In this document: in pieces, positions 584 through 60,076 of the stretch
Numbering within the stretch: the stretch's first letter is position 1
Layout of the letters: each line of letters opens with the position of its first letter
NCBI RefSeq assembly: GCF_947623445.1
Contig: NC_135240.1
Location: 25,792,001 to 25,856,000, forward strand
Reading direction: 5' to 3'
Source of the DNA: Clavelina lepadiformis
Lineage: Eukaryota; Chordata; Ascidiacea; Aplousobranchia; Clavelinidae
DNA length: 64,000 nt
Notes under the pieces: generated by a model
Told to the model about the DNA's origin: nothing
Databases searched by the model: none
What the model saw: the letters and a program-made list of their open reading frames with translations, nothing else
Position numbers and translations under genes: made by a program

Positions 584-3500
584 ATGTCAAAAAGTGAAGC
601 TAAAAAGGTGAGTTGGTAAGATAGCAACGTGCACATTTAAACGGGCTATGACAAAAAAGCCTATAAATGTCACCCATGGCTTTAGCGTTAAAGTTGATCA
701 CATATTAAGATTTATTTGTAGCATGTTTGATTGGAATTGAATTAAGCTAATCATTGGTGGTGTGTTTCGCGCCCAAAATATTGTGCTTTGTAACTTTATC
801 GCACGGTAGCATTTTCTTGGCGTTAGACATCCGAACATCAACTTCGTGTGCCGAATGGTTAAAATGTTTTGTGATATGAAAACATCATTGGTAAGTTTCA
901 CGTCATTTGTGTCCTAACCACAAGTGGACGTTTTAGCGGTAGCGGTAGCAGTACACTCCGAGAATGAAGACCTCATTTTCATCGCAAGTCAATTGTTTCT
1001 GATTGTTAAATTTCCCAGGTTACCTGGCGAGTGAAAGCAGTGAGTAGTGAATTCAGCTGTTTTATGCAGCGGTGGATCAATTATTTTTCTTTTCACTGGC
1101 TTTACTGTTTGAAGTGCCTGAACGCTGTTGTCAGCATTATTCGTGAAACACCGAATTGTAGATCGGCGCTTTGCTAAGGATGTTGTCAAATTTCAAACCG
1201 TGTTGGTTGTTATAGTGCTGCTCTAGATGACATAATAATAGTGTGGCTGACGTAATTGCTGGATGCGTGCACGCTCTAACACACGTAACGACTGACGTAA
1301 AACATGGAAAAATATGTTATCTTTATTATCAGCCAACACCAGCATTGCCATTTGCAAAACATCTAAAGCTGGAATTTTTTTGTGCATTTTTATAAATGTC
1401 ATGTATATATTGCTTAAGTGGCGTTTAGCGTAATTTGTTTTTGGCCTTTAGAGTTTTAATCCATTTCAAACCAACTTTTGTTGACCTTGTAGTTATTTAA
1501 ACACTGTATTTTTCAAGTCCAACTCATTTTCAAAACAACTTACTCAGCACGTTGTTAAATCTTTATCACGTTAGAGGAAAAAAAAATTTGTTTATTATTG
1601 TGTCTGTCACAAATGACTGCCAAGATAATTTTTAATTTTTAATCCAAACAAATGTTTAATTTCCTAATACACTTACACCTGGGTAGGTGAAAAAATCGAC
1701 AAATCGTGTTAGTTTGCTTATTTTGCAACACCTGTGGCTGAATGCATTCCAACTCACTGTCATCACTTTGCCATTGGGCGCGAATAAACATCGGTCCCTT
1801 TTCACATATTATAAAAAATAGTCCTTAAATTTCCCAAACTCACTAAGGATTTATCTTAATTTGGTCGATTTACAGCAAGAAGATGAATCCTCCTCCGAGA
1901 GCTTGGTGGAGAAGAATGAACCGGAGGTAAGAGTGAAACCAGCGTGAGGCTAATTACCAGTTCCCTGGTTAACTATACAAGCCATCAACTTACTTACTTG
2001 TCATGTCTTATTCATGCACTTTTTTGCAAATGAGCTTGGTTATACGCGATACGCGACTGTTTATTCATCTAATTAACCTTAAATAAAAGTATTCACTGAT
2101 ATTAAATAAGTAACTGCATAAGTAACCAGAGAAGAATTTACCGGCAGAAGGTTTACCGGTTTGATATCGAGTTAATGTTGCCACCTTCTTATTAACGCAA
2201 TTTTTTGTCTTATTGCTGCCTCATGTTTTGGGAATTTGAAACGATAATTCCATTTTCGGCAGCACGAACTGAAAATGAAAACTCTTTAACGTTGCCTTCT
2301 TTAGTTGATAATTTTTTAATCCAACTAAAACCAAACCAATGATTACTAGTAAGGAAAATTTTAACGTTGCTTCTCGTGATAGATTGACGTCACATCCTTA
2401 TTGTTTGCTCAGGGGGAAGAGAGAGAGACTTGGGACAAGAAACTCGACTTCATGCTCTCTTGTATTGGATATGCGGTCGGCCTCGGCAATATTTGGAGAT
2501 TTCCTTATCTCTGTTATAAGAACGGAGGAGGTGAGAGCTAGAAAATTCCAAACCGTTGAAGTACTTCGTCTCAGCGGTGCGGTTTATTTTAACAGAACTG
2601 TTTCACTTTCTTATAATTTTACACTGAGAGGGCAACTTTCGATCTCTCTATTCATCCAGTGCTTACCACGTTTGTAGTTCTTCGATATCGGATGTTAACA
2701 TTTTCCATGAAATCCTTATCGATTTCCTGGTAATTGCACCATGTAATAAAATGAAAGGCTGACTGGTGGATAACAGTAAAACTGGACAAAGTGAAACTTC
2801 TGTTATCTAGTTCTTAACACATTTCTTACAGTGTTAAACGTAATAGTTTGGAAATAATGGTAAATGAAGTGTCAAGTAGCTTTTGTGTTTACGGGCGCAA
2901 TGTAGAGGTACAGTAAAGCTTGTATTAAGTATTGAACAGAAAAACAGGCTGTAGCTCGCCAAAACAATGCATTGATAAATAAGAAAAGCGATAGTTCTAG
3001 AAAAGTTATGATGACGCATATAAGTCTGCTCCTCTACTAGATTGAAATTAATTATCCACAGCCAATCAGAAAATTGCAACGTCAAAGTTTTTTCAAGTCA
3101 AGTAAATGAATAATGAAGATCCACAAAAAGCCATCGATTTTACAAAAATCAATAAATGGGAGTCGATATATAGAACAAACCGAAAAAGATCGGACGTTGG
3201 AATTTATTTTTAACAGTTTCTTGTTAGCCTAACCTAAATATTATGACATGAGAAGCTAACCCTAAAAAATCGACCTTTTAATATTAATCAAGCTTAGATG
3301 AAACTTAGATGAGCTTAGATGAAAATTGCTAAAATTAATTTTTGGATGTCAATTCTCCAAGCCCAGCAATGTCCAATCGAAACGCTTTAAAATGACGTCA
3401 TTTTTAAATGCGGGCCTCACATTGAACAACCTATTACACTTCATTAAGTTTAACACGAAGTATAAGTAAAACTCAACGCTCTTAATTGAAGTAATTTTAA

Positions 3501-6500
3501 ATAACTTGTGCAAAATTTGAGCATGTTGTTGCGGCAACTCCCTTGCATTTCTGATGCGTCCCACAAATGCCAAGTGTACGGCGCTCACCACGATAAGGCA
3601 TTTGACAGCTCTTAACGTCTCTAGGAGTGTAAATTTGCCACATGCCACAATAATGAGTATAACAGGCGAGCCAGATCGCTACACCGTTCGAGGTGAAAAT
3701 TTGTTCCTTTCAGTCAATTTCCACAAGTCAGAGTGTACTGGACAACTATTTGCTGTTTCCTGGAAAGATTAGTTGTTATCATCTTATCATTTGTTAACGA
3801 AAACCATTAACTGACCGCACAAACCCATCAACTAGGCCGCATGTGGCCTTTTGTCTGCTTTCAGTAAGCTTTTAGTCAGGCCGAGTTTTGCTCGAATCGC
3901 AAATGCTTTAGCCTGACATTATTGTTGCTTGCCATTTCTTTATGATGTCACAAACATCATTATTGTGATAGGTGCTTTCCTCGTGCCTTATTTTATCTTT
4001 TTGGTCCTGTGCGGCATTCCTTTGTTCTTTTTGGAACTCAGCTTCGGTCAATTTGGTGCCCTGGGTCCTGTCGCCATTTGGAAGGTCGCTCCACTTTTTA
4101 AAGGTACAGGTTTAAACATAACTTTTTATGTTAGAGAATGCTGGTAAGTTAATTCATAAAGTTTTCAATAAATGAAAAATGAGAAAATCCCTTTTGCAGA
4201 ACAATTTCACGCACACAGCAAACACAAAAGACAATCAAAAATTTTCAATCTTATTTTTCGGACGCTATGATTTATTCTTTACTTTACCAGGTGTCGGATA
4301 CTGCATGATGATGATTTCTTTCATCGTGTGCATCTACTACAACGTCATAATCGCCTACAGTTTGCATTTTATCTTCAATTCTTTCACTTCTGTTCTGCCC
4401 TGGTCGACTTGTGGCAATGTATGGAACACGGAATTCTGCAGAGACAAAGTGCAAAGTAAATGCTAATTGTTTGTCGAATAGTTATTAGACATTGGACTGA
4501 AATCCATTCGACCAAGTGATTTAGCATGAATACTGACATACACCTCAGGCCCGTAAGTAAGAGGAACCAAAGGGAAGATTAGCCCACCCTGTAAAAGACC
4601 CTGTAAGTCTGGTTTTGTTGTCCGGGCCTCCTCCAGAAAATTCGTCACCTCCTCTGGTATGTCTATAAAAAACAACATTGCTTTGTTTGCAAAGAATGAA
4701 CATTTACATGGCAGACGCCAACGTCACTTCACCGCCCGAATGGACCGGGGTGAAATGCAAAGCGGGGGCGGGCTGGTTCGATGCCACTGGCATGACCTTC
4801 GTCAATGCCACAAACCTCAACGACGTTGGATACATGGGCAAGGACGATTGGGCGAACGAGACAGAAGTCAACGGCAGCTGCATAACATTTTCCACCGCCT
4901 CACAGGAATACTTTAGGTATGGCGCCACCTTATCTTTTATCTTTAATATGGGTTTGTTGTGGTTTGATCCTCACCATCAGTAAAAGTTAGATGTGAATCA
5001 TAACTAATCCTGTTTTATATCATCCCAGTCGTAAAGTTCTTCGTCTAACTGAAAGCATTGCTGAAACCGGCGGAATCCAGTGGGAACTGGTGGGCTGTCT
5101 CGTTCTAGCTTGGGTTATCGTCTTTGTGTGCTTGTTCAAGGGCGTAAAGTGGTCGGGCAAGGTAGGTAGATAATCGCTTCGACATACAGAAACTGCAATT
5201 CAAATAAACTACAACAGCAACCTTCCAAATTTGAATAAAATCAACCCCGATTTGCATCTTGTGGATAAGGTGATTGCGGAAGTCGTTAAAGTCTCGGTTG
5301 ATAACAAGTGATGGTTACGGCTTTTCGCGGAACTAGAGCGTTATCGTATAATAAAAATTCAAAACGTGTTTTAAAAATGCGGTCTATGGAACCCTCGCTT
5401 GCTTTTTTCTACCAATAGGGAGGCTTAATATTTTTGCAGAATGGATTTAAGTCTTCTTATTTTAATTTGTGTGACGCAATGGAAAATCACCGCGCGGTTC
5501 GATTGAAATTTAATCTATGATGGACGAAAAATTTCCTGTAAGACCTACCATACGCAGTTTCCCGTTTCTATAACAATAAAGCTGCGTGGTGGCTATTCAG
5601 CCAGGCACCATGCACCAGTTAGTTGGGTCTTAAACTGCGTTTAATGTCGCTTTTTATGTTTATGCACCAAATATCGTTCGTCGTGAAATAGATTTTGCTG
5701 TTTGTAATTTTTTTTGCGCCAAGTTTGACTTCAGTTTGGTATAAAACAGATATTTATTACTATCTATTTGAAATCAAACTTTGCAAATGCAATTTTTTAA
5801 ACACAATTTTCGTCATCATCTTTTGATGAACTCATAATTACGCAGGAATTTTTTGCCATACGTCATCATATTCCCCTGGACTCTATATATGTTTGGTCGC
5901 ATATTCATCTTAATTTTTCCTCCAGATCGTCTACTTCACAGCGACCTTTCCCTACGTCGTCCTCTTTATTCTCCTCATCCGTGGAGCCATGGAGGAGGGA
6001 GCCGCGAAGGGGATCGCTTATTACATCACGCCCAACGTCACCAAGCTTCAGGAAATTGGGGTGAGTTTTTGATGAAGACTTTAAAGAACACGTCATTCAA
6101 GGCAGCGATAGTACAGTCGGCGCCCCGTTGTTACCACTTCATATCTATATTCGAATTACGTCATAATACTTCGAAATCTCAATTGGTGACTAACAAGGGT
6201 ATGTTTTGTTGTCTGCCATGTATCAAGGGGTAGTTAAAGATTTTGGCAATTGAAAAGAGGCGTTACGTTATCTTCTTCGTCACTTTAAACATCCAGGGTT
6301 GCGTTTCATTATACTGTATTTATCTGCCTTAAAAGTAGAATAGAATAATTGTTCGGTTCGGTTCGTTCGGTGAACAACTTGAAACTGATCAGCTACAGTA
6401 AAACAAAGTTATCTCGTAGATGCCTATACTAACACGCATCGCGATTGTTGTTCATTGGCCGAATTACTGTATGTCGTCTTATACATTAAATCAAGCCTCG

Positions 6501-9500
6501 TGTAACTAAGATTTTAGGGTCTGGTGAAGTATTAAACATGCAGCGTTTTTCTGTCCGCATGACGTTAGGCAAACTTCAATATTTTCATAAGTATTTTATG
6601 TGATGCTCCCAATGTGGAAATTGCTTCTAAATTTGAATAAAGGATTTTGGACAAATTTTGGTGCATTTACCCGGGATGCAAATTTAAGCGAAAAAGTTAC
6701 AATCATTTTTTTAGCTCTTCGGCTATATTTGAAAGCCTTTTTATTGCCTTTCTTTTTGCACGTTTTACAGTATCCTTTGCATTCACATTTTGTCATAACT
6801 GGTTTGACCTTTCTTAACACTTTCCACTTTCTTAAGAAAACACCCTTCATGACTTACATTACAGGTTAAAATCTTACAACCAGTTCAACTTAAATGGATG
6901 GGAATATTTTTGGTTTATTAAGAAACTTCTTTTATTAGTGCTTGGGTCAGTACGTTGTATAAAGCTTTTTACCGGACACTTGATCCTATCTCAAGTTAAA
7001 TTTGATGCCGTAGTTAAGCGTTTAGTATGGGGTGCTCTTAATGGCCTATTGACTTTTGGCTAAAACACAAAAAGGATTCATAGTGGCCTCTCTTAAACGG
7101 ATGCTGCGTGGGAATTAGGTCAATCAAGTTTTAATTAAAGACCGATTTCAAGCGTCTATCGTTTTTCACTGGTCATTAATCAAGTGTCTTTGTGTATAGA
7201 ATTCTTGAAAGAATTATTTTAAATGCTTGTGTGGAAGCATTAGCTTTTCGCTGCTGTGTTCAAGGTAATTTTAAAGCGTAATAAATTGATTATCGATGGT
7301 GTTAACGTCAGAACACGGGCCATGTAAGGTTACAGAAATTATGAAGACCAGAAAACGAAACTTACTAACAAACGTTTCCAGAAAAATTGTACATCTTAAA
7401 CGCCATGTGTAGAACAACACCTCAAACATGTTTCCATCATGCAGTGACTGGTTAGCTAACATTTGCTTAATGTTGTCTTTCAAACAATGTCTGGGAAACG
7501 TGTTAAAGAAAACTACATGCCCATTGTGGTGGAAAAATCAATATCGCTGTCCAGATCGATTTATGGAAATACACCCAACCTCTTTCCGTTTGTGACGACA
7601 TAGAGACGACATCCAAAGTTGATATTTGAATCGAGATTCTGGCTCATGATGGAAGCGACTAGAATTCTGGTTGTTTACTGTGCTTGTATATTTTTTGGTT
7701 TTGTGCTGTGATCATTAGGTTGTGTACAGTAGTTATTATTACAATGTCACGGCAGTTTTCACAAGTTAACTTTAGACCTGATTAGGTTTTTAGTACCTCA
7801 TTGTGTTACGCACCGACTTAAATAAAAGAGAGAAACTTTTACTGAACACCCAGCAATGCTTTTGCTAACAAATCCAATAAAAGCTCTTCAAAGCGAACGA
7901 ACATCCCAAGCTTACCTCACACTTCATTAATATTATGAGCAGTGATGAGTGGTCTTAAAGAAAAAGGAACTATGTTTTTTATACTTGATTTTTCAAACGT
8001 GGACAGTTGTTAATCGTGGCGGTTGGATGATTTTGTTTGAAAATTCTGGGTATGTTCTGGAGTTGTTGTATTTGGTGAAATGCCATTTTTGGCTTGTTTG
8101 ATTTCGTCTGATATTTTTAGTTTTATTACTCGTTTGAACAAATTGCTAGAATTTTCTGTACACGACGTTTCTAAAGATGAAAATCTTTATTTACAGTCGA
8201 TTCATTGTCAGTTTTTTTTGTTATGCTTTTGCAATTCATAAACTTTGGTAATTATTGTTTTTTTTATTTACAGGTTTGGTCGGACGCCGCAATTCAGATC
8301 CTTTACTCTCTGGGTGCGGCCTGGGGTGTTCTGCTTTCCTATTCATCTTTAAACAAGTTCCACAACAACGTGTACAGGTATATCAAGTGACCTACAGTTG
8401 CATTACATGCACAAACGGAAAACAACAAAAATTGACACCGAAAAAACATCTGAAAAATCCAGACCAAAAACATTAAAGGATAGGCAAGAATCGAACCTGA
8501 GCATTACTGTTTGTATGTATTTGACAGAGATGCAATTTCGATTTGCACAATAAACTGCTGCACGAGTGTTCTTGCTGGTTTTGTCGTCTTCTCAGTGCTT
8601 GGATCTCTGGCTCACCAAACCGGTCGTGAAATCGAAGATGTCGTTGACCAAGGTAAAAATTGTTTTTCGATATCGTCCGAAAAGATTATTATTATCGATT
8701 AATGTTTTGCAAATATCGATTGATTATCGCGTTTATAGGTGCTGGTCTTGCCTTCGTCGCCTATCCAGCTGCAGTCGCCAACCTCCCTGCTGCCCCCGTG
8801 TGGGCGTTCCTTTTCTTTTTCATGCTCCTGAATCTTGGTTTGGACACTCAGGTAGCATCCATTGTTGCAGAGTTTAGGTCAAGAAGTCTGGGAGGCTGGA
8901 ACACGGTTTCGCGTTAAAGATATTGAGCCTTGATATACCGGTCTCCAAATGTCATCAACAACAATAAATCAAATGTTGACATTTATTCACACAAACTAAC
9001 CAAGGTTTCAATTAACATAGTTGATGTAGTTTTAAGCGTCAACATATTTTCCAATCTCAACGATTTTATAATTTGCTTGCTTGTCCATTTACGCATTTTT
9101 TTCTTCTAAAGTTATTTGTTAATCTGATAGAAAACAAATTTTTCGTTTCAAAGAATTATTTTCAAGTTTCTACGAGTTGCAATAAACTCATGTACGCTAA
9201 AAATATAACTTAGTGTAACCTAATCATGTAAAGTCCATTTAAGAGATTTTACCAACCTCAAAAATGTAAACTTGCCAAACTTACAACTTTATACTAAATT
9301 CAGTAGGTGATTTTAATTCAACAACTACGAAATAATTATGTCGTAGTCTGAAAATGGTCTGATACCAGCTTTAAATAAAAACCGACATTCTACACATATG
9401 TACAAATACCTTCCACATACAAACCTTGACAGATTGATTCACTAACATAAACATGTTACATTCTAAAACTAGCACAATGGCCTTAAAACCAGGTCACATT

Positions 9501-12500
9501 TAATGCACAAGACCAATGTTCCAGCCTCCACTAACCGCCAATTACTTTTATCTATATTAAGCTTTTATCGAATTCAGACAGGTATGTGGATTTTTATGTC
9601 ATAGTTTGCTCTTTTTTAGAACATTTATTTCTATATTTTTATTTTGTTTCTTCTAAAACTTTACCTGGCAAGGAAGTTTGTGATTGTCAAAGATTATTGG
9701 TTGATTGTTTCAAGTTAAACTTTTTACAGCAAGACGACTGCAATGGACAAAACATAAAAAGTAGTATTTTTTTATTGATTTGAAAATGCAGTTTACTGCG
9801 TTCTGGTAATACAAATACCTGCAAATTTGAATCAATTTGGTTGGAGTGGATCATAAGTTTGCTGACGTTTAATTAAAAGTTTCAAAACATGAAGATGTTT
9901 TCATTGACATTTTTAAAATCATTCTCTTTGATGACAAACTTCCTTACCCTGTACTATGACCTCAAGTGGTGAAGAGAAACTCAGACACCATATTCTGCTA
10001 TATCTGATGTCAATGCCACCTCGTTTTATTGCTGTGAAGATAACTGACAAGCGACAATCAGAATTAACTAGCAAACCGTGTTTGGTTTTCTTTTCACTAT
10101 TTGGTACATGGCTTTCCCGACTATATTTCAATTAAATTATAATACAGTGTATGAAAGTTTTGCTTTGCTGTGACAAAGGGAATTTCCCAAAATAGTAACC
10201 GAAATTATAATTGGTATATTTTTTTCTTACAGGCCTGAACTTGAACATATATACAAATTTTTTTTGCATTTTTATATTTTTACTTTTGATTTTGTTGTTA
10301 CTATATTGCGTCAGGATTGTTGTGAGTAAGTGGATGTGATATTTTGTACGGGTGCTGCCTGCAATTACTTGACAAATGCTTCTGCATACAAAATCAAATG
10401 GCTCATTTGTATAGCTGAAGTGTGTAGGTTAAAATAGTATGTCTGAGCTACCCTATCACTTGTAGAGGGCTAAAGGCCAATTCTTATATATCAGTTACGT
10501 TTCAAAACCTTTCTACAGTTTTCTTGGTGAGCCGATCACTGTTTAGTTTGCATATTAAAAACTTAACCGGTTTGTAAATAACAGCTTTGGGTGTAAGATA
10601 TACTTCTCTAGACAAATGGGTTTCATGGAGTGTTGTGGCGTGTGTAGCTGAATGAATGTGATACAGTGATGTTTTCAACGTGAAGAAACTAACGATGAGA
10701 CTTCCTTTCTGCATTGTCTCTGTTAGGGGCAGGCCCAGGGCAACAACGATGAAAGAGGCAGTCCCCCGACTTTCAGCCTGCCCCCCCGCCCGTATTGCTG
10801 GTAATCATCGGAATCAGTATATTAGTGAACTTGTATTTCGTTGCTTCTTTTTGCTGCTTCTGTTAACCTCTGTTATATGGGCAATTGTTGGCGTGGCTTT
10901 TCCGATTATCCCGTGGCTTCTGAATTATCGATTCAGGACATGATTTACACCACGAGTTGTGTTTCATAACCAATCAATAATTATCTAAGAATATATCTTG
11001 GCACCAGACCACGCCAACACAAAGTGGTACATTTGGCCTTGTGGGCTAAAGAATACGTTGCAGTACAATACATCTGTTTGAGCATGGGAAACAAACCGAT
11101 GTAAAACAGCCAGCATTTGTTCCAAATTAGCATTATTTTGCAATTCAGCCCCTCGCAAGATTGGCGTTTCTTCAACAAAACTTTTTAATGGTTGGTCTGT
11201 TTAAATTCATTGGTTTGTTATTCCAGTTCATAGGACGGGCTATCCTGATTTTTTTATTTAGAAAGCCAAACCAGGCTTTTGGAAACATATTTTAATATTA
11301 TTATATCACAGTAAAAACCATGAAATGCATACAGCCAGAATTTAATCATTGCCTTGTTCATTTGCCATGTTTTGAAATGTCATTCTTACGCAGCATGTGA
11401 CCTGCATGTCATCAAATCAGCAACCGATTAGATTACAGCGCTCGGCTTGCAACTGCATCCCGTGGTCGCTATGACTGACGATGGCTCCTGTTCAGTAGTC
11501 ATGATGACCAGCCACAAATTCGGGCAATACATTAAAAAAAAAACTGAAAAAATTGTGTATCGATCGGTACTTGCACAAAGGCCAGCTCGGTAACCGGGGC
11601 TCGAGCGATGAGGGTCTATCGCTGAGTTTAAACTGTGCAAAGACTTTCTTCAGTTCGAAAATAAAGATAATGTAATCATCTATACCATATCATATGATCA
11701 GCAATATCAGCTGATTGTCTTTTTAACATTTGAAGTTCAAAGTATTATGACAAATACTTGTTTGTTCAATTACAATAGTTATCTGTTAATGAACAGGGCA
11801 ATGTTTAAGATATGCAATGGTTTCAATACTTTTGATTTTGCGGTTTACAATTTTTTTTTAGAACGCCTGTCAACTTGTGGCTGTTTTTTTTTAACCAGGT
11901 TAACCTTTATTCATAGACTTAACTGCTGCTGAATATGCCAAGGTGTGACCAAATTTTTTTAAAAACAATCACTTTTTTAAAGCTAAATTTGGATTTTCAC
12001 AATTGGAACTTTAGAGTGAAAAATTATGGACTGCTTTAGCTCTGCTTTTTTAATTAATAAAGGTTGACCTAGTTATGGGCACATACAAAGTTCGGGCAAA
12101 AAATTGCATTTGTTTTAGCATCTATACATCGGATGCCTAATCTGCAAATTATTCAATTTTTAGCGCCGGCTTACCACTCTTTTTCAGCAGCCAATTTCTT
12201 TTTTCCCAACGCACACAGGGTTTGCAAGATACCAAAATAACCCATTTATTATACTTGTTAAGTTTGGAATGATTGAGGGAGTCACCAAGGGTTTGTTGGA
12301 TGAAGTGTCCTGGTTCCGTAGAAATCGAGTCAAGTTTTTGGCCGGCCTCTGCGTGATTCAATTTGTTCTTGCTATTCCAATGGTCACTGAGGTATGGTGG
12401 TAGGTTGTAGCTGCAATGACATAGTGCCAGCAATTAAGCTAATTTGGTTGCTTTAATTGACGATACCGGCTTCTGTGTGTGGCCTATTTGCCTTATCAAA

Positions 12501-14236
12501 AAGGCGTCCTAATGTTTCAGAGCGGAATGTATTGGTTAAATCTCATCGATTGGTACTCCTCGGGATTTCCGCTTATGACTGTTGCGGTTTTGGAGATCGG
12601 TTGTTTGTCCTGGAATTACGGTAGGTTCTTTCCTAATCTATTTACTGTACTTGAAGCGAGTTATATAAACTTAGCCTTTGTATTTCTTTACTTAACTGAC
12701 GATTGACAAACAAGACTCATCTCTATAACACATGAAAAAACATTGTAGGTTAATGGTCAATTGTAATCTATCTCCAATACCACAAAATTAAGCATAAGAG
12801 CGGTTACGCGGTTTTATGATGTGCTTAAGATGTGAACCTATCTATACCTGTGTTGATGGCTTCTGGTGATTTTTATGTCAGGTGTTGACCGCTTCATTTA
12901 CGACATTGAGTGCATGATCGGGAAACGACTCTTTCTCTGGCAGTGGTGGAAGGCATTGTGGCTTGTGATAACTCCTGTCTGTATCGGGGTGAGTTGGACT
13001 AGGTGCTCTTAAAGTTTGTAAGGTTTGTTTGGACATTGCGACACCTGAAAATATTAGAGTAAGTGTACCATTTTCGATCGGGGCCCAAATTTCAATCAAT
13101 TGTTTTTCGTTTTATAAGTCGTGAAGAACCTGGGTAATCGACTTTTTTACATTAATTTTGGAACCGAGATCCTACAACTTTGCTGACTTTTATCTTCTAA
13201 ATTTATATAATTTTAAAACTGTTTGAAAACTAAACTGAAAACAACCACAAGTTATAGCCTACTATTGTTTTAGGCTATAACAAGAATTTCATTTTATACA
13301 TCTAGACTACCAAATAAACCAAAATAGCTGTAATGATCTTATCAGACTAATGTTTTATCATGCATATTTGCAAAGCCCCATTGACTATTATTTTCTAGGC
13401 CTGTAAGTTGTGGTGCCCGTGATGCATCTACATGTATGCCTTGCAGCACGTTATGATATCCGGTTTGGCGATAACGTGCCAGTACATTTAGCCTACTTAA
13501 AAACAATAGGCCGTAATGTTTTATGGTATTCGTTATGCTGTGTTAGACGTATATGTTTAACTAATCGGGTGGTTTTTGTTTTTAGTTTGTGTTGACTGCA
13601 TATGTCAGTTTCTACTCCCCGGTTAAATACAACGGCAATGGTTACCCGTCTTGGGCCGAAGTTATCGGTTGGTTTTCCGCCTTTACCTCCATTATCGCCA
13701 TACCAGTTACGGCTATCTACCAAATTCTGAAGCATCCTAGAGCAAAAGGAACAATGTTTGAGGTAAAAAAGTGAAGTTAACTGTAGTAATCTTGCATTGA
13801 ATAAATATAAACAAGTCAACAGTACGTCAAATATGGTCACAATATTCATGCACGTTTTAAGTCTTCAAGGCGTTTCTACTTTTTTCTGTACATTGGTGCA
13901 TACTATTAACAATAAAAGCCGGCACTTTAACATGTGGCAAAGATAAAATAGCTTAAACCGTGCATGAAAGTAATAATAGTTATAACTTGTTGATGACAAC
14001 TAGCCCGACCAATAAGCCAAACCAATCTTCTTCAGAGGGTAAAGGAGCTCTTGAAGTCCGATCCGGACTGGGGACCGCACGACCCGAACGTCGAGTACAA
14101 GTACAGATCCAATAAGAAGGTGATAGAGATGAAAGAGCGAGGTTCCGAACCACTGACCTCCTGCTGCGCTGGAGAGCAATCCTCCTCCTCCAGTTCTGAG
14201 TCTCTGGAGCCTCCGAGCTACGCTGCGGCCGTTTAA
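584..14236 (+). CDS. SLC6 Na+/Cl--dependent amino-acid/neurotransmitter transporter, copy 1
   Basis: Plasma-membrane symporter of the SLC6 (LeuT-fold, 12 membrane segments) family, closest in feel to glycine/proline-type members; the substrate is inferred. Exons: 584-607, 1876-1926, 2413-2530, 3972-4103, 4291-4455, 4715-4916, 5029-5161, 5926-6060, 8274-8377, 8528-8652, 8739-8851, 12263-12391, 12521-12620, 12882-12988, 13586-13762, 14036-14236. All junctions are in phase and sum to 671 codons plus TAA, a normal family length. TM1 carries the family motif NIWRFPY at about residues 51-57. The long second extracellular loop has four N-glycosylation sequons (about N166, N194, N211, N216) and the [10 protein letters not shown] cysteine pair. 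TM6 reads NLGLDTQ. The C-tail contains DPDWGP, as in glycine transporters, a serine run, and ends SYAAAV. The ATG was chosen because both copies share MSKSE and a donor follows in phase. Exon 8 ends EIG where copy 2 has DIW. Introns range from about 90 bases to 3.4 kb. Confidence 0.93.
10727..10800 (+). other. Candidate cassette (poison) exon in SLC6 copy 1 intron
   Basis: This 74-base block lies in the 3.4-kb intron between exons 11 and 12. It has a pyrimidine-rich acceptor (TCTCTGTTAG) and a donor (CTG|GTAATC). It is identical in copy 2 (25607-25680), and the next ~45 bases differ by one base, while the rest of the intron has many differences and indels. The length is not a multiple of three. 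Joined to exon 11 it reads [16 protein letters not shown]..., and joined to exon 12 it gives TGA within three codons. Inclusion would truncate the transporter before TM7. It could instead be a terminal exon, since TGGTAA is a stop if the donor is skipped. Confidence 0.5.
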
Positions 14237-18119: not shown

Positions 18120-21100
18120 ATGTCAAAAAGTGAAACTGAAAAGGTAAGCTAGCAAGATAGCAACGTGCACATTTTGCCAGGGTTTGATAATAATTATAGC
18201 ACCTTTTGATCTTAATTATATTTTAAATACGACACCTTTCTTTATAGTATAAGCTGAACACAAATTAAGGGATTTATAAAGGAACTTATAGAAACTTATA
18301 GAAAAAACCGGCTTACAATGAAATATGCATGTGCAATGCAACGCACGTTGTTCACTGATTTGTGTACGCTATGTGTAGTATACAAGAAGTCCAACTGCAT
18401 CAAATACAACCGGTTATGTTAGTGCAGACTTACTCGTGTTCCATTAGTATTGTTATTATTATGTCACCAATGACTGTCAAGATAATTTTTAATTTTCAAT
18501 CCAAACAAATGTTTAATTTCCTAATACACTTACACCTGGGTAGATGACAAATCGTAGCCGTGTTAATTTTCTTATTTTGCAACATTTGTGGCTGAATGTA
18601 TTCCAACTCACTGTCATCACTTTGCCATTGGGTGCGAATAAACATCGGTCCCTTTTCACACGTTAAAAATAATCCATAAAATTTCCCAAACTCAATGAGG
18701 ATTTATCTTAATTCAGGTCGATTTACGGAAAGAGGATGAACTCTCCTCCGAGAGCTTAGTGGAGAAGAAGGCACCGGAGGTGAGAGATAAATAATTGATC
18801 AATTGATGATTGAATTGATCTAAAATCGGGTTAACGTTGCAATCTTCTTATTAACGCAATATTTTTCTTATTGCTGCCTCATGTTTCGGGAATTTGAAAC
18901 GATAATCCAATTTTCGGCAGCACGAACTGAAAATAAAAACTCTTCAACGTTGCTTTCGTATTTTGATAATTTTTTACTTCAACTAAAACCAAACAAATGA
19001 CTGCTGGTAGAAGGGATTTTAACGTTGCTTCTCGTGATAGATTGACGTCACATCCTTATTGTTTGCTCAGGGGGAAGAGAGAGAGACTTGGGACAAGAAA
19101 CTCGACTTCATGCTCTCTTGTATTGGATATGCGGTCGGCCTCGGCAATATTTGGAGGTTTCCTTATCTCTGTTATAAGAACGGAGGAGGTGAGAACCATA
19201 AAATTCCAAACCGTTGAAGTTCTTCGTCTCAGCGGTGCGGTTTATTTTAACAAAAGTGTTTCATTTTCTTGTAAATTTCCATCGAAACATATTTCTTTGG
19301 AATATGACGTTTTGTGTTAGTGTGGTATGAAGGTAAGGAAATGACAAGTTTCGAAGGACGTTTCAAGGACCCGTGTGGGGCAGAGTAAAGCTGGTATGGA
19401 CAGAAAACCAGCTTGTAGCTCGCGTTACCAAACATGAGAGAAAACAAAGCAATGATAAATAAACATGATTTGAAACATGATAATTACGCTTATAGGCGGA
19501 CTGGGCTGAAACCCACTGACAAACAAAAACTGCAATGATACAGATTTTCAAGATAATGGATGAAACCGATAAAGATTTCTAAACAGTCATCGTTAATTAA
19601 GTAAATGATTAATGAATATCCATAAAGTGTAGTCCACTTTATAAAAATTACTGTTTTGTGACTTAAAAAACATCTTTATTGTGATAGGCGCTTTCCTCGT
19701 GCCTTATTTTATCTTTTTGATCATCTGCGGCATTCCTTTGTTTTTTTTGGAGCTCAGCTTTGGTCAATTCGGTGCACTGGGTCCTGTCGCTATTTGGAAG
19801 GTCGCTCCACTTTTTAAAGGTACAGGTCTAAATATAATTTTTTTAAATCTTTACAAGCTTACCAACAAATATGTCCTTGTAGGTAAGTTGGTAGTTAAAG
19901 GCCATAAAAGTGCTTATGTGGAAAAACTTCCGTTAGCCAGCGAATATCAAAAAACTAACAAATTCAGTTGTAGTTTTGCGGACGCTATGATTTATTCTTT
20001 ACTTTACCAGGTGTCGGATACTGCATGATGATGATTTCTTTTATCGTGTGCATCTACTACAACGTCATAATTGCCTACAGTTTGCATTTTATCTTCAATT
20101 CTTTCACGTCTGTTTTGCCTTGGTCGACTTGTGGCAATGTATGGAACACGGAATTCTGCAGGGACAAAGTGCAAAGTAAATGCTATTGTTTATCGTTAAT
20201 GGAATAAATCAATGGAGTAAAATAAACAAATTAAGTTTAAATGGATAATAAATAAAATTGCTAATTGTTAATCGAATACTAATTTGCTAAGCTAGTTGAG
20301 CTTAAAAGCACTTAAAGCAAATATAATTTTGAACTGTAAAGTTGATTTCATGGATCAAATTATTTAGATAAAATACTATCATAAACAGTGCCCTCATAAG
20401 TATAAGCTAAATGATCAATTTATATAAAGAATAATATACCGTTGTTCATAAAGAATGACTCTTTACATGGCAGACGCCAACGTCACTTCACCGCCCGAAT
20501 GGACCGGGGTGAAATGCAAAGCGGGGGCGGGCTGGTTCGATGCCACTGGCATGACCTTCGTCAATGCCACAAACCTCAACGACGTAGGATACATGGGCAA
20601 GGACGATTGGGCGAACGAGACAGAAGTCAATGGCAGCTGCATAACTTTTACCACCGCCTCCCAGGAATATTTCAGGTATCTTGCAGCGTTTTCGTAAAAA
20701 AAGAACACAATGGTGTGGAAAACCCATTTGTAAAAGTTCAATTTGGATCGCAACTGTTTTATCGTGTTTTTTATCGTGTTTTAATCGTGTTTTATATCAT
20801 TCCAGTCGTAAAGTTCTTCGTCTAACTGAAAGCATCGCTGAAACCGGCGGAATCCAGTGGGAACTGGTCGGTTGTCTCGTTCTAGCTTGGGTTATCGTCT
20901 TTGTGTGCTTGTTCAAGGGCGTAAAGTGGTCGGGCAAGGTAGGTCGAAAATAATCAATGGATAGTTGGTAGATAATAGTTTGGCGATTCGTCGCATTTAT
21001 CTTTATTTTTCCTCCAGGTCGTCTACTTCACAGCGACCTTTCCCTACGTCGTCCTCTTCATTCTCCTCATCCGTGGAGCCATGGAGGAGGGAGCCACAAA

Positions 21101-24100
21101 GGGAATAGCTTATTACATCACGCCCAACGTTACCAAGCTCCAGGACATATGGGTGAGGTTTTATGAGGCTTATTAAGAAACGCGCCACGTCATTCAAGGC
21201 AGCGATGGAACAGTCTGCGCCACGTTGTTACCACTTCACGTTGGTATTCGAATTACGTCATAATATTTCAAAATCCCAAGTGATGTTGGCGATTGAAAAG
21301 GGTGTGTTTTGTTCACTTTTCAATGATTCACTTCCGGTTTCCATTAACGACCACTACTCCAGTTATTAATCAGGGGCTGTTTGATTTGACAATGGAAGCG
21401 ACGTTTTATCTCGCCCTATTTGCCACTAAACAAACGCCCAGGGTTATTTTCGTTTGGTTTGTGAAAATAGCAATCGATCGGTTATGTAAACAACTGCATT
21501 CTGAGAAGGGTGTATTAAAGTTTTCTGCAGCATACATTACAGGTTAAAATCTCACATCCGCTTCACTTACATCAGCGTGAATTTTTTAATTTATACAGAA
21601 AACGTCCTTTGTAATGCTTGGGCCCGTACATTGTATAAATTTTTTACCGGACACTTGATCCTATCTCATGTTAAATTTGATGCTGTGAGTAAGCGTTTAG
21701 TGAGAAGTGCTCTGAATGGCCTATATTTTGTTACCGACTGTTAACTAAACACAATAAGGATTCACAGTGACCGTTTACGAACTGGTGTTATGCGGGACCT
21801 GGACAAACCAATTCTTGTTCACGACACAATGTGTTTGTGTTTAACCTTTTCTTAAGAATCATTTTAGAAGCTCGTACGCAAGTCTTACTTATATGCTACT
21901 GTGTTTATGGCAATTTTGAATGAAAAAAAAATTGATTGGGCTACCGATGATGAAACATGAACAAACGCCTGATATTTCGACTTAGTAATGTGACAAAAAT
22001 ATGTGTGATAACTGATAACTAGGGCAACCAGTTTTTTGACCTAAAAAGTTTAAATTTTGACGTTATTTTGACCTAAAAAGTTTAAATTCTGACCTTATTT
22101 TGACCTAAAAAGTTTCAATTTTGACGTTATTTTGACCTAAAAAGTTTAAATTCTGACCTTATTTTGACCTAAAATGTTTAAGTTTTGACCTTATTTTGAA
22201 AAACGCTAAACTGATAGTCTCTACAGTCTACACTGTCTACAGCAACTTTCTAATCTAAAGCTGCATTTAAAATTGACAAAACGCTTTTTTAGTGTTGCTT
22301 TTTTTTCGTTTCTGCGTATTAAGATTGACAACTTGCAGTTTCAAATGCAATGCCTTCACATCGTGACGTCACCAGACGCGCTGAAAGGCCTTCCCTCTCT
22401 TTGTGGCTTTGGTTCTAAGTATAATTTGGGGCACTGGAATTGTTTGCGGTACAAGAAAAGAGAAAAACGGAAGAATAATATTGCAAAATGGTTACAAAAT
22501 TACAAGTTTAATAGATTTTGACCTAAAAAGAAGACCTAAAGAAACAAATTGACCGTATTTTGACCTAACGTAACATTTTGACTTTATTTGACCTAATAAC
22601 TTCTATACCACATGTCGTACACAGCTGAAATTTGTTTTGTGCTTGTTTGATAGCATTCTGAGCAGGTTAAAAAAAATTGACCATATTGACTTTTGGTTGC
22701 CCTACTGATAACCTTTCAAAACCCGCCTGGGAAACGTGTTTACCATAACCGCATATCGCAGAAATAATCGATATACGTTTCCAGATAGATTAGTCGAAAT
22801 ACAAGCCCCACTCCCTTTTATAGTTATACACTGTAGACTTGAGAACCTATCTGAATGAAAATTCTAGCTGGAAGCTTCTAGAATTCTGCATGTTTACTGC
22901 GCTTGTATTCTTGTTTGAGCTTCGATGATTGGGCTGTAGTTACAGTGTACCAATAGTGGGTTAATATGTTATCCTTAGACCTAATTAGGTCTTTAGTAGA
23001 CATACCCCTTTATGTTACACGCCCCTAAATAAAAAACAATTAAAAAACAACAAAGTTTTGCTGAAACATTTAACAAAAGGCCTTCATGAAAACTAGCTTG
23101 TTTAAGCATCGTTCTTTGGGAACTGTTCATCGCATGGCCTTTGCTTATTTTCGTGTTTGTTGCTTGTTTTTGCAGGTTTGGTCGGACGCCGCAGTTCAAA
23201 TCTTTTACTCTCTGGGTGCGGCCTGGGGTGTTCTGCTTTCCTATTCATCTCTAAACAAATTCCACAACAACGTGTACAGGTATATATGACCAACAATGGT
23301 ATCATCTATAAATGCAGAATCAAAATCAACAGAAATCACCGCAGAAAAAATGACTGGAAAAACTAAAAAAGTTAAAGATTGCGTTTATGCTTGAATATTG
23401 TTGAACAGAGATGCAATTTCGATTTGTGCAATAAACTGCTGCACGAGTGTTCTTGCTGGTTTTGTCGTCTTCTCAGTGATTGGATCTCTTGCTCACCAAA
23501 CCGGTCGTGAAATCGAAGATGTCGTTGATCAAGGTAAGAGTTATTTATCGATGTCCTGTTTAACGACTATTATTATCGATTAATTATCGCGTTTATAGGT
23601 GCTGGTCTTGCCTTCGTCGCCTATCCTGCTGCAGTCGCCAACCTCCCTGCTGCCCCCGTGTGGGCGTTTCTTTTCTTTTTCATGCTCCTGAATCTTGGCT
23701 TGGACAGTCAGGTAACATCCTTTGTTGTAAAATTTTGGCCCTGAAGTTCGGAGACTGGAACACGGTTTCGCGTTAAACATTTTGATTCTTGACACATCAG
23801 TCTCCAAATGTTAGCTGCGCAAATAATTTTAACACCAAAACAAACCAAATTTGAAAATAACGGAGTTGATGCGATTTTGAGCTTAAATCGCAGTCAAGAT
23901 CTTTTCTGGTTTAATTTGCTTAGGCCTATGCGTATATCCGTTCAAGCAAATATTTTATGGTAAAATTATTTGATAATCTGTTAGAAAACGAATCTTTGGT
24001 TTCGAATAATTAATTATTTTTAAATTTCATTATTGAGTTTAATCATTGATGTGCGCAGAAAATGTAACAACTGTAAGTTACATTCAGAAAACGTCAATTT

Positions 24101-27100
24101 AAAAGATTTTACCTTAAATCCGAAAAGAAAAATATTCCAATTTTGAAATAAATATTTTTGTCAAATGAAAACACGATTTCGGTGGATAATTTCATTTCAA
24201 AAATATAAAGTATTATGACATAGTCTGCAAATTATTTAATAAGAACTTAAAAAAAATTTGAATAAACAAAAAATTTTGCAAATGTTTTATCAATACCGAC
24301 ACAATAGTGATAAATAATAATTTATAATCTATACAAGTGTTGGCTTACAAATGCAATCCACACATAAAATGTAGTAAATTTATTGAATAACCTCTACGTC
24401 TTACATGCCCAACACCAGCAGACTGGTCTTAAACAGGGCAAATTTAATGCACAAGACCAATGTTCCGGTCTCCACTAACCACCAATTACTTTTTGTCTAT
24501 GTTAAGCTTTTATCGAATTCAAACAGGTATGTGGATTTTTATGTCATAATTAAGTTTTTTTTTTTAAACATTTATTGTCCATATTTTTATTTTGTTTCAT
24601 CTGTTTTTACTTGGCAAGGAAGTTTGTGATCGTGAAAGGTTATTGATTGATTGTGCCAAGTTAATTGCTTTTGTTTCAAACGACTTAGATTAACTCAAAA
24701 TGCAGTTTTGGCCTACAGCGTCCTGGTAATGAATAGAAATAACTTAAATTAACTTGATCTGGTTGAAGTGGATCATAAATTTGTTAGGGTTTAATCAAAA
24801 CTTTCAAACAAAGCAAATGTTTCAATTTGCAATTCACTTTTCTCATTCTCTTTGATGACAAACTTCCTTCCATGTACTATGACCTCAAGTGGTGAAGAGA
24901 AACTCAGACACCACACTCTGCTATGTCTGATGTCAATGGCACCTGACTTTATCACTTTGAAGATAACTGACAATCAGGGTTTCATCAGCGAGCGAGTGTT
25001 GTTGATTTTCTTTTCACTATTTGGTGCATGGCTTTGCCAACTCTATTTTAATTATGATATATGGAAGTTTTATCTTACTGTGACAAAGGGAATTTTCGTA
25101 AATAAAAACTTAACTGTTAATTAGTATTTTCGTTCTTACAGGCCTGAACTTGAACATATTTACAAATAAATATATATGATTTTTGCATTTTTACTTTTGC
25201 GTTACCATATTGCTACAATGTTGTTGTGAGTAAGCGGGTGCTGTATTGTGCAAGTGCAAGTGTGAGTGTGCTATTTGCAAGTATTTGACAAATATTTCTC
25301 TATACAAATTTATATGATTAATTTGTATTCAGTACATAGGCCAATTTTTATATATCAGCTATGTTTCAAACACGGTCTATAATTTTCTTGGTGAGTCGAG
25401 CACAGTTTAATGTGCATGGTAGATACTTCGCCAGTTGTAAAGTGACAAAATTACCAATCCGGTTTGGGTTTGAGATAAAATATTTCTATGGGCAGATGGG
25501 TTTATTGGAGTGTTGTGACGTGAGTAGCTGGATGAATGTGAGACGGTGATACTTTGAACGTAATGAAACTAACCATAAGACTTCCTTTCTGCATTGTGTC
25601 CGTTAGGGGCAGGCCCAGGGCAACAACGATGAAAGAGGCAGTCCCCCGACTTTCAGCCTGCCCCCCCGCCCGTATTGCTGGTAATCATCGGAATCAGTAT
25701 ATTAGTGAACTTATATTTCGTTGCTTCTTTTTGGCTGCTTTTAGTAATCTCTGTAATGTTTTCTGGTCTTTCTTTTGCTGGCTTCTCCATTATGATGTGG
25801 CTTAGAACAATAATGCACGTGGCCACGTGAGCCAAAGCATACGTTGCACTGCAAAATATACTGTAATATGAAAAACAACCCGATGAAAAACACTTGGCGT
25901 TTGTTTCAAATTAGCTTGCATTACTTTGTGATTCACTTCTTTAGTTTAAATAATTGGCATTTTCGACAAAACTTTCGAGTATTTAAAGTTCTCAGTTTGT
26001 TACTGCAGTTTGCAGGTCGGGCTTTCTTGATTTTGTTCATTAAGAAAGCAAAACCAGGTTTTTGCAAACATGTTTTCAGTTAGGTTTATTATTTTTATTC
26101 AAAGCAAAAACCATGAAATGCATACATCCCGAAATTAATCATTGCCATGTTCATTTACTGCTTTAGAAAATGTCATTAAATATAGTACGCCTATGTGGAA
26201 AGTATGTGATCAAAGCAAATAGCCTAAACAAAGTCGGTTGGTTATCATTATCACATATTGAGTTCAAAGTATAATACAAATACTTGTTAGTTCAATTACA
26301 TCATTTGCTTGTCAATAAACATGGCAATGTACAAGATATGCAAAATGGCTTTAATACTTTTCACTTTTGCAATTTACAAATTTTGTTGTATGCTTGACCC
26401 TATGGCTTATGGCTATATTTTGGCTTAACCTTTATCGTTGGTTCCTGCCGAGGTTTAACCAAAACGGTTTCGGAAAATCATATATAAAGCTTAATTTAGA
26501 TTCTCTTAACCTGGGTTATAGTGAAAAATTATGGACTGCTTGAGCTCTGATTTTTGGCTTAATAAAGGTTGATCTTGTTATGGACACATACAAAGTTCGG
26601 GCAAAAAATTGCATTTGTTTTATTCTCTAAGCTTATAAGTATCGGATGTGTTTTCTCCAACTTTTTTCCATTTTTAACGCCGGCATACCACTGTTTCTTT
26701 GAGCAGCCAACTCCTTTTTTCTAAAATAACCACACAGGGTTTGTAGAGTACCAAGCTAAACAATTTATTATATTTGTTAAGTTTGGAATGATTGAGGGAG
26801 TCACCAAGGGTTTGTTGGATGAAGTGTCCTGGTTCCGTAAAAATCGAGTCAAGTTTTTGGCCGGCCTCTGCGTGATTCAATTTGTTCTTGCTATTCCAAT
26901 GGTCACTGAGGTATGGTGGTAGGTTGTAGCTGCAATGACATAGCATAAGCAGTTAAACCATTTGCTTGCTCTAATTTACGATACGGGCTCTTCTGTGTAA
27001 CCTATTGGCTCTATCATATACTGTAAGTGCGTTAATGTTACAGAGCGGAATGTATTGGTTAAATCTCATCGATTGGTACTCTTCGGGATTTCCGCTTATG

Positions 27101-43700: not shown

Positions 43701-46700
43701 TAAAAACGTCACATTCAAATATCCTTCAAGACCCAAGTCGGATGTAAATCACACCAAAATTATATGCATCATATCTTTTCTTTTGAAACGTACAGATAAG
43801 GTCTATAAATCTGAATGCAAAGTGTAGAAACGTATGTTTATCAGATGATAATGAGTAGTTAAATGTCAGTCAATCAGGCGCCTATAAAATTAAAACAAGC
43901 ATTGCATAGTCTTAGGATTAGTTAAACTTGAATAAATTTTAACATTTTCCGCCTTCAGGTGTTGAGGAATGTCAGCTTCACCATACCAGCCGGCAAGAAT
44001 GTTGCCATCGTTGGACACAGCGGCTGTGGAAAGAGTACAATACTCAAACTCATTCAGAGATTTTATGACATTGATGTTAGTGCAATAATGGTTATTTTGT
44101 GAACTAATTTTGTACCATCGTCAAAGGTAAAAATTTTCAGTCTCCTTACTTTTTCCCAATAGGATGGTGTTCTTTCAATTGGTGGTCATGACGTTCGATC
44201 TTTAAATGTTCGTTGGCTTCGTGAGCAAATTGGTCTGGTTTCGCAAGAGCCAGTGCTGTTTAATACGACAATAGCAGAGAATATTCGTTGGGGTCGTGAA
44301 GATGTCTCAGACGAAGAACTGATTGACGCCAGCAAGATTGCAAACGCTTATGACTTCATAAACACCCTTCCTGATGTAAGTTATTTCACAAATAGAACTT
44401 GGGCTTGTTTATCTGAATAATATTGGCATTGCATGAAGCTAGTCCAAATATTTTAGGTGGGTAAAGTTAAAGCGTGTGTATAAAACATTGTCACAGTGGG
44501 TACTAAGTACGCTTGTCAATATGTAATTAGTTGATAAAGATGGATAGTGCTACATACTTACAGAAGACCAGCATAATTTTTCTCGCAATAGCATTTGTTT
44601 TATTCTTGTCTTAGAACATCTAACATTCACAGAACCATACTGTAAGGACATTAGAGCAATATCATATCACAGTAGGAAAAAATAATAATTTATTCCTAAG
44701 ATCCAAGATATCTTCAAACACTGATAGGATTGTTCTCACAAAAATAATTATAAATTTAGAAATTTGACACGATAGTTGGTGATAGAGGGACAAAAATGAG
44801 TGGAGGGCAGAAACAGAGGATTTCGATTGCTCGAGCGGTCATCCGCAATCCAAAAATTCTTCTTCTCGATGAAGCAACATCTGCTCTAGATGCTGAGAAT
44901 GAAGCTCTGGTGCAGTCTGCTCTTGAAAAAGCATCTCAAGGTTCAAGACAGCTTTTTTATGATTTAATCTTGAGACGAACGCAGTTTAAATGATAACTTA
45001 GGAATCCTTTGCTCGTTTGAACCATTTAAACATAAAAATGCCACTGTTATTATTAGAATGTTTGTCATCATGTAGATTAGTTCAAAAAACAAGTAGTATA
45101 AGCAATGAAATGAAATATTATTATGAGCCTGACCTTGCAGACCGCACTACAATTATAATTGCTCATCGATTGTCGACCATCAGAGGAGCAGACAAGATCA
45201 TTGTGTTGGATGGTGGTGAGGTAAAAGAAGGAGGAAGACATGAGGAGCTGATGGAAGTTGATGATGGCATCTACAGGAATCTAGTCAGCACTCAACTCAT
45301 CAAGGATCAAGAGCCAGCCTTGCCGAATGACTTGGACATATCCAATGGTTGGTCTCTTCGTTACAACTTACAACCCATCCATGGTCGGCATGACAGTACA
45401 TCTTCATTGCTAGTCCCTTTTTATGACATAACAATCATCCGCGCAATAGCACGAGTCTCTCCATTGGTATTATTAATAAAGATACACGTTGTAAAGATTA
45501 GCACACTGGTTTACACTGCTGGGTTAGATTTAATGCTTTTGCTAGCTTTATTTAAGTTGTTAGTGTGTGGTTTTAATAGTACATGATCACAAGCATCAAA
45601 AGTTGTCGTGCCACTGCGTACATTGAACCATTTCACTCTGTTTATTGTTACCCACAAAGGAAATGGCAAGATAAACAAGAAACAGGCCGGGGACATATCC
45701 TTGGAAGATGAGCAAAAAGAAGACGAGGAGGATCATGACATGCTCACTGATGCTCCATTTAAAAGACTCTGGATGCTAAGCAAGCCAGAATGGCTGTTCA
45801 CAGCAAGTAGGCGTCTCACAATGTGCAAATGCTTTCACGAATTGCTTGCACACAGGTTTTTGTAAGGTTTTACTTTGGTGGCCACCAATCAATTTTAAGA
45901 GACTTCTACTTTTAAAGATTACCTGCTAATTTTGACAGATCGTTGGAGAAATTTAAGAGACCATATTAGTCCCCCAAAAATACCTTTATAAAACCACGCT
46001 TGCATAAACAGGCTAGTTAAAATCTCGATCCAAGAATTCATTCTTCCTCCAGTTGGATGTTTCTTCGCGATAATCGCTGGAGCAGGAGATCCTCTTCTTG
46101 CTCTCGTTTTTGGTGAGGTGCTCAAGATTTTCACGACGACAAACGATCAGTTGCACCGGGCGAGGATTTACAGTCTCACGATGTTTGGACTCGGAGTGTC
46201 CACGTTTTTTTGGTTTTGGATGAAAGTAAGAGCAGTGTCTTTTATTGACAGTGTTTGCTTTTGAAAGCATGAATGTCATAGGAGTTCCACATATAGTATA
46301 AGGAAGGGTCACACCATTAGTAATTCGAAAGCTTTTTGGCAGGCTACAACTGTTTTACCTACCTGTGCGTCACTTGCCCAATTAAAGTCTCTTTAAAATA
46401 AATGTGACGTTTTTACTATAACGACCTACCATTTTACAGTTTGTATATTCACCCCGTATTTTCTCCAATCGCTTTAGTCGGTTTTCCTCTCCAAATCGGG
46501 CACGGGGCTAACCGAACGTTTGCGCAAAGCCGCGTTTCGTGCAATCCTGAGGCAAGACTTGGCCTTCTTCGATGAACCGAGCAACAGCAGCGGAACTTTG
46601 TCCGCTCGTCTCTCATCAGACGCCGGCAAAGTTGACGGTTGTATTGGAACAAGAGCCGGTCTTTTGTGTCAAAATTTCGCTGCCGTTGGTATGTGCTTCA

Positions 46701-60020: not shown

Positions 60021-60076
60021 CCCGTCTAGTTTAGGCGTCCCGTCCCGTCTAGGCCACCAGCTGGCCAGACTCCCGT
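60020..60076. repeat. GTCCCGTCTAG / CCAGCTGG module
   Basis: Short repeats of GGCGTCCCGTCTAG are followed by TAGGCCACCAGCTGGCCAGA. The latter module recurs at 62576-62602 and twice at 63424-63480, each time beside tRNA-like or repeat-family sequence. Confidence 0.7.

Follow-up and report, generated by a model that had tools for sequence, protein, structure and literature searches.

Intron 9 of three tandem SLC6 genes of Clavelina lepadiformis contains a 74-nucleotide block that is conserved beyond neutral expectation, is framed by splice-like signals and would break the reading frame if included in the message. We propose, with a probability of about 0.5, that this block is a normally skipped poison cassette exon lying in a structured regulatory intron, through which the transporter would be turned down via decay of its message. 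From these features we infer the use of the block as an exon, its skipping by default, the decay and the role of the RNA stems described below. The main risk to the exon reading is a serious rival, in which the block is conserved as an intronic element and at no time spliced in.

Three tandem SLC6 genes

The window is the whole stretch of 64,000 nucleotides that was analysed (C1:25792001-25856000 in the species' own assembly of 209.06 Mb in 95 contigs). Two SLC6 genes were modelled in it with the same 14 core exons, both open to the final stop: copy 1 at 2413-14236 and copy 2 at 19071-29816, the end of exon 6 of copy 2 being shifted by one base, which keeps the frame. Copy 3, with the same core exons and likewise open to its final stop, lies a short way upstream of the window. 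When the assembled copy 1 protein is compared with the PDB, GlyT2 is the best match (5.7e-166), followed by entries named only Transporter and then by GlyT1, the proline transporter and others; by these matches the hosts are glycine-transporter-like SLC6 genes. The parts of the genes needed here are the following.

8739-8851, forward strand: exon 9 of copy 1, from the 14-exon model that is open in all three copies; it ends at a codon boundary (...LDTQ), and its donor CAG/GTAGCA opens intron 9
8852-12262, forward strand: intron 9 of copy 1, 3411 nt, unusually conserved
12263-12391, forward strand: exon 10 of copy 1 (FGMIEGV...), where the shifted frame meets TGA
23712-26781, forward strand: intron 9 of copy 2, 3070 nt

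Intron 9 of copy 3 measures 3147 nt. The constitutive acceptor of exon 10 (12263 and 26782) ends in TTAAG, an unusual AAG acceptor present in all three copies; a 20-nt candidate exon described below likewise has TTAAG. Copy 3 is a mosaic with respect to copy 1 (5029-13762): exons 5, 10, 11 and 13 are 81-87% identical and exons 6-9 and 12 are 94-98% identical. Between the same two copies dS is 0.09 in exons 6-9 and 0.45 in exons 10-13. The mosaic suggests past conversion among the coding exons.

Downstream of the SLC6 copies, a scan of nine of the 12 long frames revealed parts of two more genes, one for an ABC transporter (ABC_tran at 48480-48881 and 49526-49957 and, below the family cut-off, ABC_membrane at 46551-46958) and one for an OATP transporter, the two sets together occupying 46551-49957 and 55500-56036. 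Six tRNA genes, which account for all the Rfam gathering matches in the window, are found at 60068-60145, 60651-60733, 60809-60891, 63471-63548, 63680-63762 and 63838-63920; their triplets read Arg-tct, Ser-cga and Ser-tga, then Arg-tct, Ser-cga and Ser-aga, the last serine anticodon differing.

Conservation of the block and of intron 9

10727-10800, forward strand: 74-nt block of copy 1, candidate poison cassette exon C; 74/74 identical with copy 2 and 71/74 with copy 3; premature stop if included
25607-25680, forward strand: 74-nt block of copy 2, 74/74 identical with copy 1
10801-10862, forward strand: downstream flank with the weak donor GTAATC; 59/63, 60/62 and 57/63 columns identical (pairs 1-2, 1-3 and 2-3)

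A preliminary description of this DNA had reported the block as identical in the two SLC6 paralogues of the window, which our alignment bears out. In copy 3 the block lies at C1:25781894-25781967, and its three changes are all transitions, clustered in one short stretch. Between copies 1 and 2 the identity continues for five bases upstream and 32 downstream, making a 111-base identical run; the next longest run in intron 9 is 41 bases, and the other 12 introns have runs of at most 33. Copies 1 and 2 are 77% identical over the alignment of intron 9 and its flanking exons, a level at which the chance of 74/74 is about 4e-9; at an assumed 86% it is about 1.4e-5. Among the paralogues, intron 9 aligns with 64-77% identity, compared with 71-74 of 74 positions in the block.

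The surrounding intron had been described as diverged, and identity is indeed only 41-68% in the stretches that adjoin the conserved tract of the block. On the left side (10560-10684) the identities are 96/141, 70/143 and 82/143, and on the right side (10863-10960) they are 45/98, 47/98 and 36/87, for pairs 1-2, 1-3 and 2-3, respectively. A conserved downstream flank had also been described; its conservation stands, while its length of about 45 bases has to be revised to about 62, conservation fading at about 10862 in the three-copy alignment. The block has an exon-like GC content of 66%, compared with 35% for the intron and 57% for the richest non-overlapping 74-nt window in the intron of copy 1. 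Its distance from the exon 9 donor is 1875, 1895 and 1871 nt in copies 1-3, although the length of the intron varies from 3070 to 3411 nt. DNA searches of the own genome with the block, with the flank of exon 9 and with the two elements A and B described below returned the three tandem places only. An Rfam scan of 10500-11000 at permissive and gathering thresholds gave no family at gathering score (best E 5.6). A coding reading was examined by eye and set aside: the frame from the ATG at 10749 is open to about 10850 in the three copies, and the few substitutions do not favour synonymous sites.

The block is the most constrained part of intron 9 but does not stand in an otherwise neutral intron. 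In intron 9, 39% of the columns are identical in the three copies, compared with 6-28% in the other introns, except for intron 8 (65-86 nt) with 62%; intron 6, the next longest, reaches 17%. Among 74-column windows of intron 9, the best scores are 72 and 68 at the block and its flanks and 66 at element A, followed by 57 and 55; the maximum in intron 6 is 43. Of 20 further SLC6 loci, four showed an intron in the corresponding place of the protein, 172-287 nt long. As intron 9 is constrained as a whole, the conservation of the block does not by itself imply an exon.

Effect of inclusion on the reading frame

Inclusion had been predicted to shift the frame and to create an early TGA. This is the case in all three copies, where exon 10 is read as CLE and then TGA. 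Inclusion adds 27 residues before the stop (in copy 3, ERGGSPTF replaces ERGSPPTF). In each of the three copies the stop is followed by four junctions, the last of them 503 nt away. In general, messages are subject to nonsense-mediated decay when an early stop precedes the last junction by more than 50-55 nt; at 503 nt, the stop is of the kind expected of a poison exon. Whether the 20-nt candidate, the block or both are included, the result is a premature stop with four to six junctions downstream in all three copies.

We may then consider the following course of events. The block would be skipped by default, its inclusion being confined to certain cells or conditions. Once included, it would shift the frame so that exon 10 opens with a stop, with four junctions still to follow, and because the stop comes so early the message should undergo nonsense-mediated decay, turning the transporter down.

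Splice signals of the block

Sites were scored against an independent matrix built from 73 introns of 20 other SLC6 loci (a single best GT-AG solution with a score over 40 being required). The tandem genes' own sites, 39 donors and 42 acceptors, served as a second reference, of which the donors are not independent, as they represent 13 sites in three related copies.

10685-10726, forward strand: acceptor region of the block, with CTAAC at 10689, a pyrimidine-rich stretch and TTAG; 37-39 of 42 columns identical pairwise

The splice-like frame of the block had been noted before and is present as described: a pyrimidine-rich stretch and TTAG precede the block and GTAATC follows it. The CTAAC at 10689 is kept in the three copies, and in each of them the first AG past it is that at 10726. 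Conservation rises at this acceptor region, taking in the CTAAC, the pyrimidine stretch and the AG in all three copies, which counts for a poison exon. With the independent matrix, the acceptor stands at 16/73 in copy 1 and at 8/73 in copies 2 and 3, and against the tandem genes' own acceptors at 7/42, 3/42 and 3/42; by these scores it is usable, within the range of real acceptors. The donor CTG/GTAATC ranks 3/73 in each copy and 0/39 against the tandem donors. With the tandem-gene matrix, 63/187, 62/179 and 45/179 GTs of the intron (copies 1-3) score at least as high as the block donor, and 9/151, 26/127 and 26/123 AGs at least as high as the block acceptor. Three real donors of the tandem genes score 0.5, 3.8 and 4.2, compared with 4.1 for the block donor (independent matrix), so that the latter is weak rather than impossible. 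The earlier proposal of a poison exon is partly supported: constraint and frame effect, both seen in three of three copies, speak for it, and the weak donor (3/73, 0/39) speaks against it.

Over the intron as a whole, the strongest aligned sites are the donor at 9582 (52/73) and the acceptor at 10233 (47-52/73). With the 10th percentile of real acceptors as the threshold, to be reached in every copy, 5/33 aligned AGs qualify on the sense strand (10727 and 10733 being the same place) and 0/43 on the antisense strand; for aligned GTs the counts are 1/45 and 0/38. Lowering the threshold to the 5th percentile removes any preference of aligned donors for the sense strand (2/45 sense, 4/38 antisense). 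T exceeds A on the sense strand of intron 9. Compared with other AGs of the same strand, conserved AGs are better by only a marginal degree in most of the tests (p of 0.14, 0.037 and 0.17 at the 10th percentile; 0.38, 0.12 and 0.011 at the 25th). The motif CTAAC is kept in the three copies twice, at 9531 and 10689, both times ahead of a candidate acceptor. It weighs little, since it precedes real acceptors in only 3/61 independent introns and 0/39 tandem introns. Another conserved acceptor-like site of intron 9 lies at 11234 (scores of 6.5, 12.0 and 11.4).

Two further elements of intron 9 carry splice-like sites.

9562-9581, forward strand: element A, candidate 20-nt microexon (acceptor TTAAG) or zero-length recursive site (ACAG/GTATGT), aligned in three of three copies, with a strong donor at 9582
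10233-10258, forward strand: element B, start of a conserved stretch behind the strong acceptor TTCTTACAG/GC, which ranks 52/73, 47/73 and 52/73 in copies 1-3

Element A is preceded by the CTAAC at 9531. Its TTAAG is weak (1-2/73), its ACAG ranks 7-13/73 and its donor 52/73; the ACAG and the GTATGT are directly joined in the three copies. If element B is read on from exon 9, the second codon is TGA.

Complementary regions and RNA folding

8891-8903, forward strand: 5' arm of stem I, beginning 39 nt past the exon 9 donor
9517-9529, forward strand: 3' arm of stem I, separated by a single base from the CTAAC of element A
9670-9685, forward strand: 5' arm of stem II, 16 pairs with 9930-9945
9930-9945, forward strand: 3' arm of stem II, pairing with 9670-9685

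Stem I has 13 pairs, with 38/39 cells paired in the three copies (31-51% when the arms are slid) and one two-sided change, from G-C to A-U. Its predicted energy is -27.0, -24.3 and -25.7 kcal/mol, matched by 0/500 shuffles in each copy. Stem II has 16 pairs, one of them with a two-sided change, and 45/48 cells paired (29-54% when slid); with its flanks it reaches -28.1, -28.9 and -26.4 kcal/mol, and again 0/500 shuffles are as low in each copy. Both stems are at least 10 nt long, conserved and of low free energy in the three copies, the properties that define a conserved complementary pair. The covariation, seen in three sequences only, is equalled by 162/500 shuffles for stem I and 344/500 for stem II and is not significant.

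A search for complementary arms over the three-copy alignment gave 18 windows on five diagonals, compared with none in one pseudo-complement control. Under a stricter rule with five controls, the diagonals number 4 versus 0-1 at 12 bases, 5 versus 0-4 at 11 bases and, at 10 bases, 6 versus 0-4 with one mismatch and 1 versus 0 with none. Given control values of up to four diagonals the overall excess is modest, and the two stems stand out from it. The same search in intron 6 returned no arms, real or control; this intron is a weak control, as it has far fewer aligned identical columns. Ends of a transposon with terminal inverted repeats were also considered. The arm stretches match only the tandem copies (three, two and three places, in a search that skips very common words; the two places belong to the stem II stretch, for which copy 3 was not picked up), which speaks against such ends. 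An origin by transposition is disfavoured, as is gene conversion alone.

The positions of the arms of stem I suggest that this stem would bring the exon 9 donor beside an internal acceptor and help to direct splicing towards the unproductive outcome. Through 9668-9679, the 5' arm of stem II can also pair with the pyrimidine stretch of the block, at -11.4 to -15.3 kcal/mol, which is far weaker than stem II; the fraction of shuffles as good is 0.022, 0.000 and 0.046 in copies 1-3 (nominal values, uncorrected for many tests). The two could possibly form a competing fold. Another pairing of the pyrimidine stretch, with 10175-10186, was dropped, the fraction of shuffles as good being 0.062, 0.222 and 0.000 in copies 1-3. 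When the block is folded together with its flanks, two hairpins are predicted: one, GC-rich and of nine pairs, takes up the final G of the acceptor, and the other includes the donor. This local folding is no better than that of shuffles (five folds, z from -0.9 to -0.5), and a different fold is obtained for the 74 nt by themselves. The hairpins offer no covariation test, as their arms are invariant in the two copies folded and hardly vary in the third (by eye).

We may wonder at this stage whether these features make up one RNA-structure-gated off-switch, inherited by the three tandem copies. Stem I would dock the exon 9 donor at an internal microexon or recursive site and feed the unproductive 20-nt and 74-nt exons, the GC-rich hairpin at the acceptor would keep the 74-nt exon skipped, and the 5' arm of stem II would switch between competing folds until a protein or a small molecule tips the balance. 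This complete scheme is speculative and we hold it to be unlikely as a whole; if true, a tunicate would be regulating a solute carrier by feedback through unproductive splicing.

Other readings of the conserved tract

The block and the other conserved pieces could instead act from within the intron as regulatory elements, be it enhancer DNA, protein-binding sites or RNA structure, and never serve as exons; the AG and GT would then be incidental or decoys. We consider this possible, though doubtful. It agrees with the constraint on the whole of intron 9, with the weakness of the block donor and with the marginal enrichment of good splice sites among conserved dinucleotides; moreover, there are GC-rich runs, such as CCCCCCCGCCC, which we infer could bind proteins. 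On the other hand, the conserved acceptors are sense-only at the 10th percentile, the long-range complementarity points to a function in RNA rather than DNA, and breakage of the frame in three of three copies is expected of an exon, even if it would often also arise by chance. Recursive splicing, which is compatible with the poison-exon reading, would make ACAG/GTATGT at 9581/9582 a zero-length exon that rebuilds a strong donor behind exon 9, with the block used in the same stepwise removal. An acceptor and a strong donor do adjoin there in three of three copies, ACAG outscores TTAAG in all of them and stem I links the exon 9 donor region to 9581/9582, but the intron is just 3.1-3.4 kb long, an earlier aligned AG (9561) stands between the branch-like motif and ACAG, and pyrimidines are scarce immediately before ACAG; the chance of such use is in our view slim.

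Two other transcript structures are improbable. The block could begin an alternative last exon. Its acceptor would then be used, the reading frame continued from exon 9 would run for 25 codons to a TAA at 10801-10803, and the transcript, ending within the intron, would encode a truncated transporter. This would suit the acceptable acceptor, the weak donor and the TAA placed right at the putative donor in the three copies, as read from the alignment; yet the intron of copy 3 has neither AATAAA nor ATTAAA, the only two signals sought, downstream of the block, in copies 1 and 2 such signals come only after a further 450 nt or more, and conservation fades at about 10862. Equally, the donor at 9582 and the acceptor at 10233 could bound an intron within the intron, belonging to a nested or alternatively started transcript with a hypothetical first exon. 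These are the two strongest aligned sites inside intron 9, but no long reading frame is common to the copies (by eye), and element A sits behind a CTAAC and a pyrimidine stretch, as an internal exon would. A functionless tract homogenised by recent gene conversion is the least probable of all. The genes do form a tandem array, and between copies 1 and 3 dS is low in exons 6-9 and high in exons 10-13, a pattern to be expected after past conversion. Within the tract, however, each pair of copies shares states that are absent from the third, which argues against a single recent conversion, and intron 9 contains several separate conserved pieces. The preliminary description had itself named a recent conversion tract as an outcome that would overturn it; what we find is that copy 3 matches the block at 71/74 and falls to about half identity on both sides, with 48-49% to copy 1 just outside, which speaks against that outcome.

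Relation to known systems

It is chiefly from genes for RNA-binding proteins that poison exons are known. The ultraconserved poison exons of SR-protein genes combine extreme conservation with a broken frame and serve the self-regulation of splicing factors. The Clavelina block resembles them in that it would break the frame and is, together with its flanks, extremely conserved at the nucleotide level. Its host is a membrane transporter, unlike the SR-protein genes, so that the controlling factor would be another molecule. By the PDB matches of the copy 1 protein, the hosts resemble the glycine transporters GlyT2 and GlyT1 (SLC6A5 and SLC6A9), from which the Clavelina array differs by its three tandem copies. 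For Ciona, an amphioxus paper gives one GlyT and one GlyT2 (PMC8699752). The genome note of C. lepadiformis names the RNA run ERR10908613 (PMC10884593). In the excerpts surveyed of the literature on poison exons in SLC6 genes and solute carriers, ascidian glycine transporters, tunicate decay and splicing in C. lepadiformis, the exon is unreported.

A human study describes cryptic poison exons in conserved introns, which came to light in RNA-seq data; PCR with decay inactivated bore out seven of the eight that were tested (PMC11632617). A flanking complementary pair accompanied 25% of these exons, compared with 13% of annotated cassette exons; the authors of the study left this complementarity aside, energy differences and probing being lacking. 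The Clavelina block is similar in being a frame-breaking cassette in a conserved intron with conserved flanks and complementary regions nearby. It differs from the human exons as described there in that it is known from sequence alone, belongs to a tunicate transporter and is conserved between paralogues, not between species. Its two intronic stems near splice-like sites recall the conserved complementary pairs and RNA bridges presented in PMC8052449, with an arm that adjoins rather than covers the branch-like motif; unlike those pairs, they are known as sequence features of three paralogous copies. If the poison-exon reading is true, unproductive splicing would extend to the control of solute carriers in the closest relatives of vertebrates, and the three natural copies make the sequence rules directly testable. 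As conserved poison exons, some with complementary regions, are already known from these two papers (PMC11632617, PMC8052449), the block would be a candidate further case, in an unexpected type of gene.
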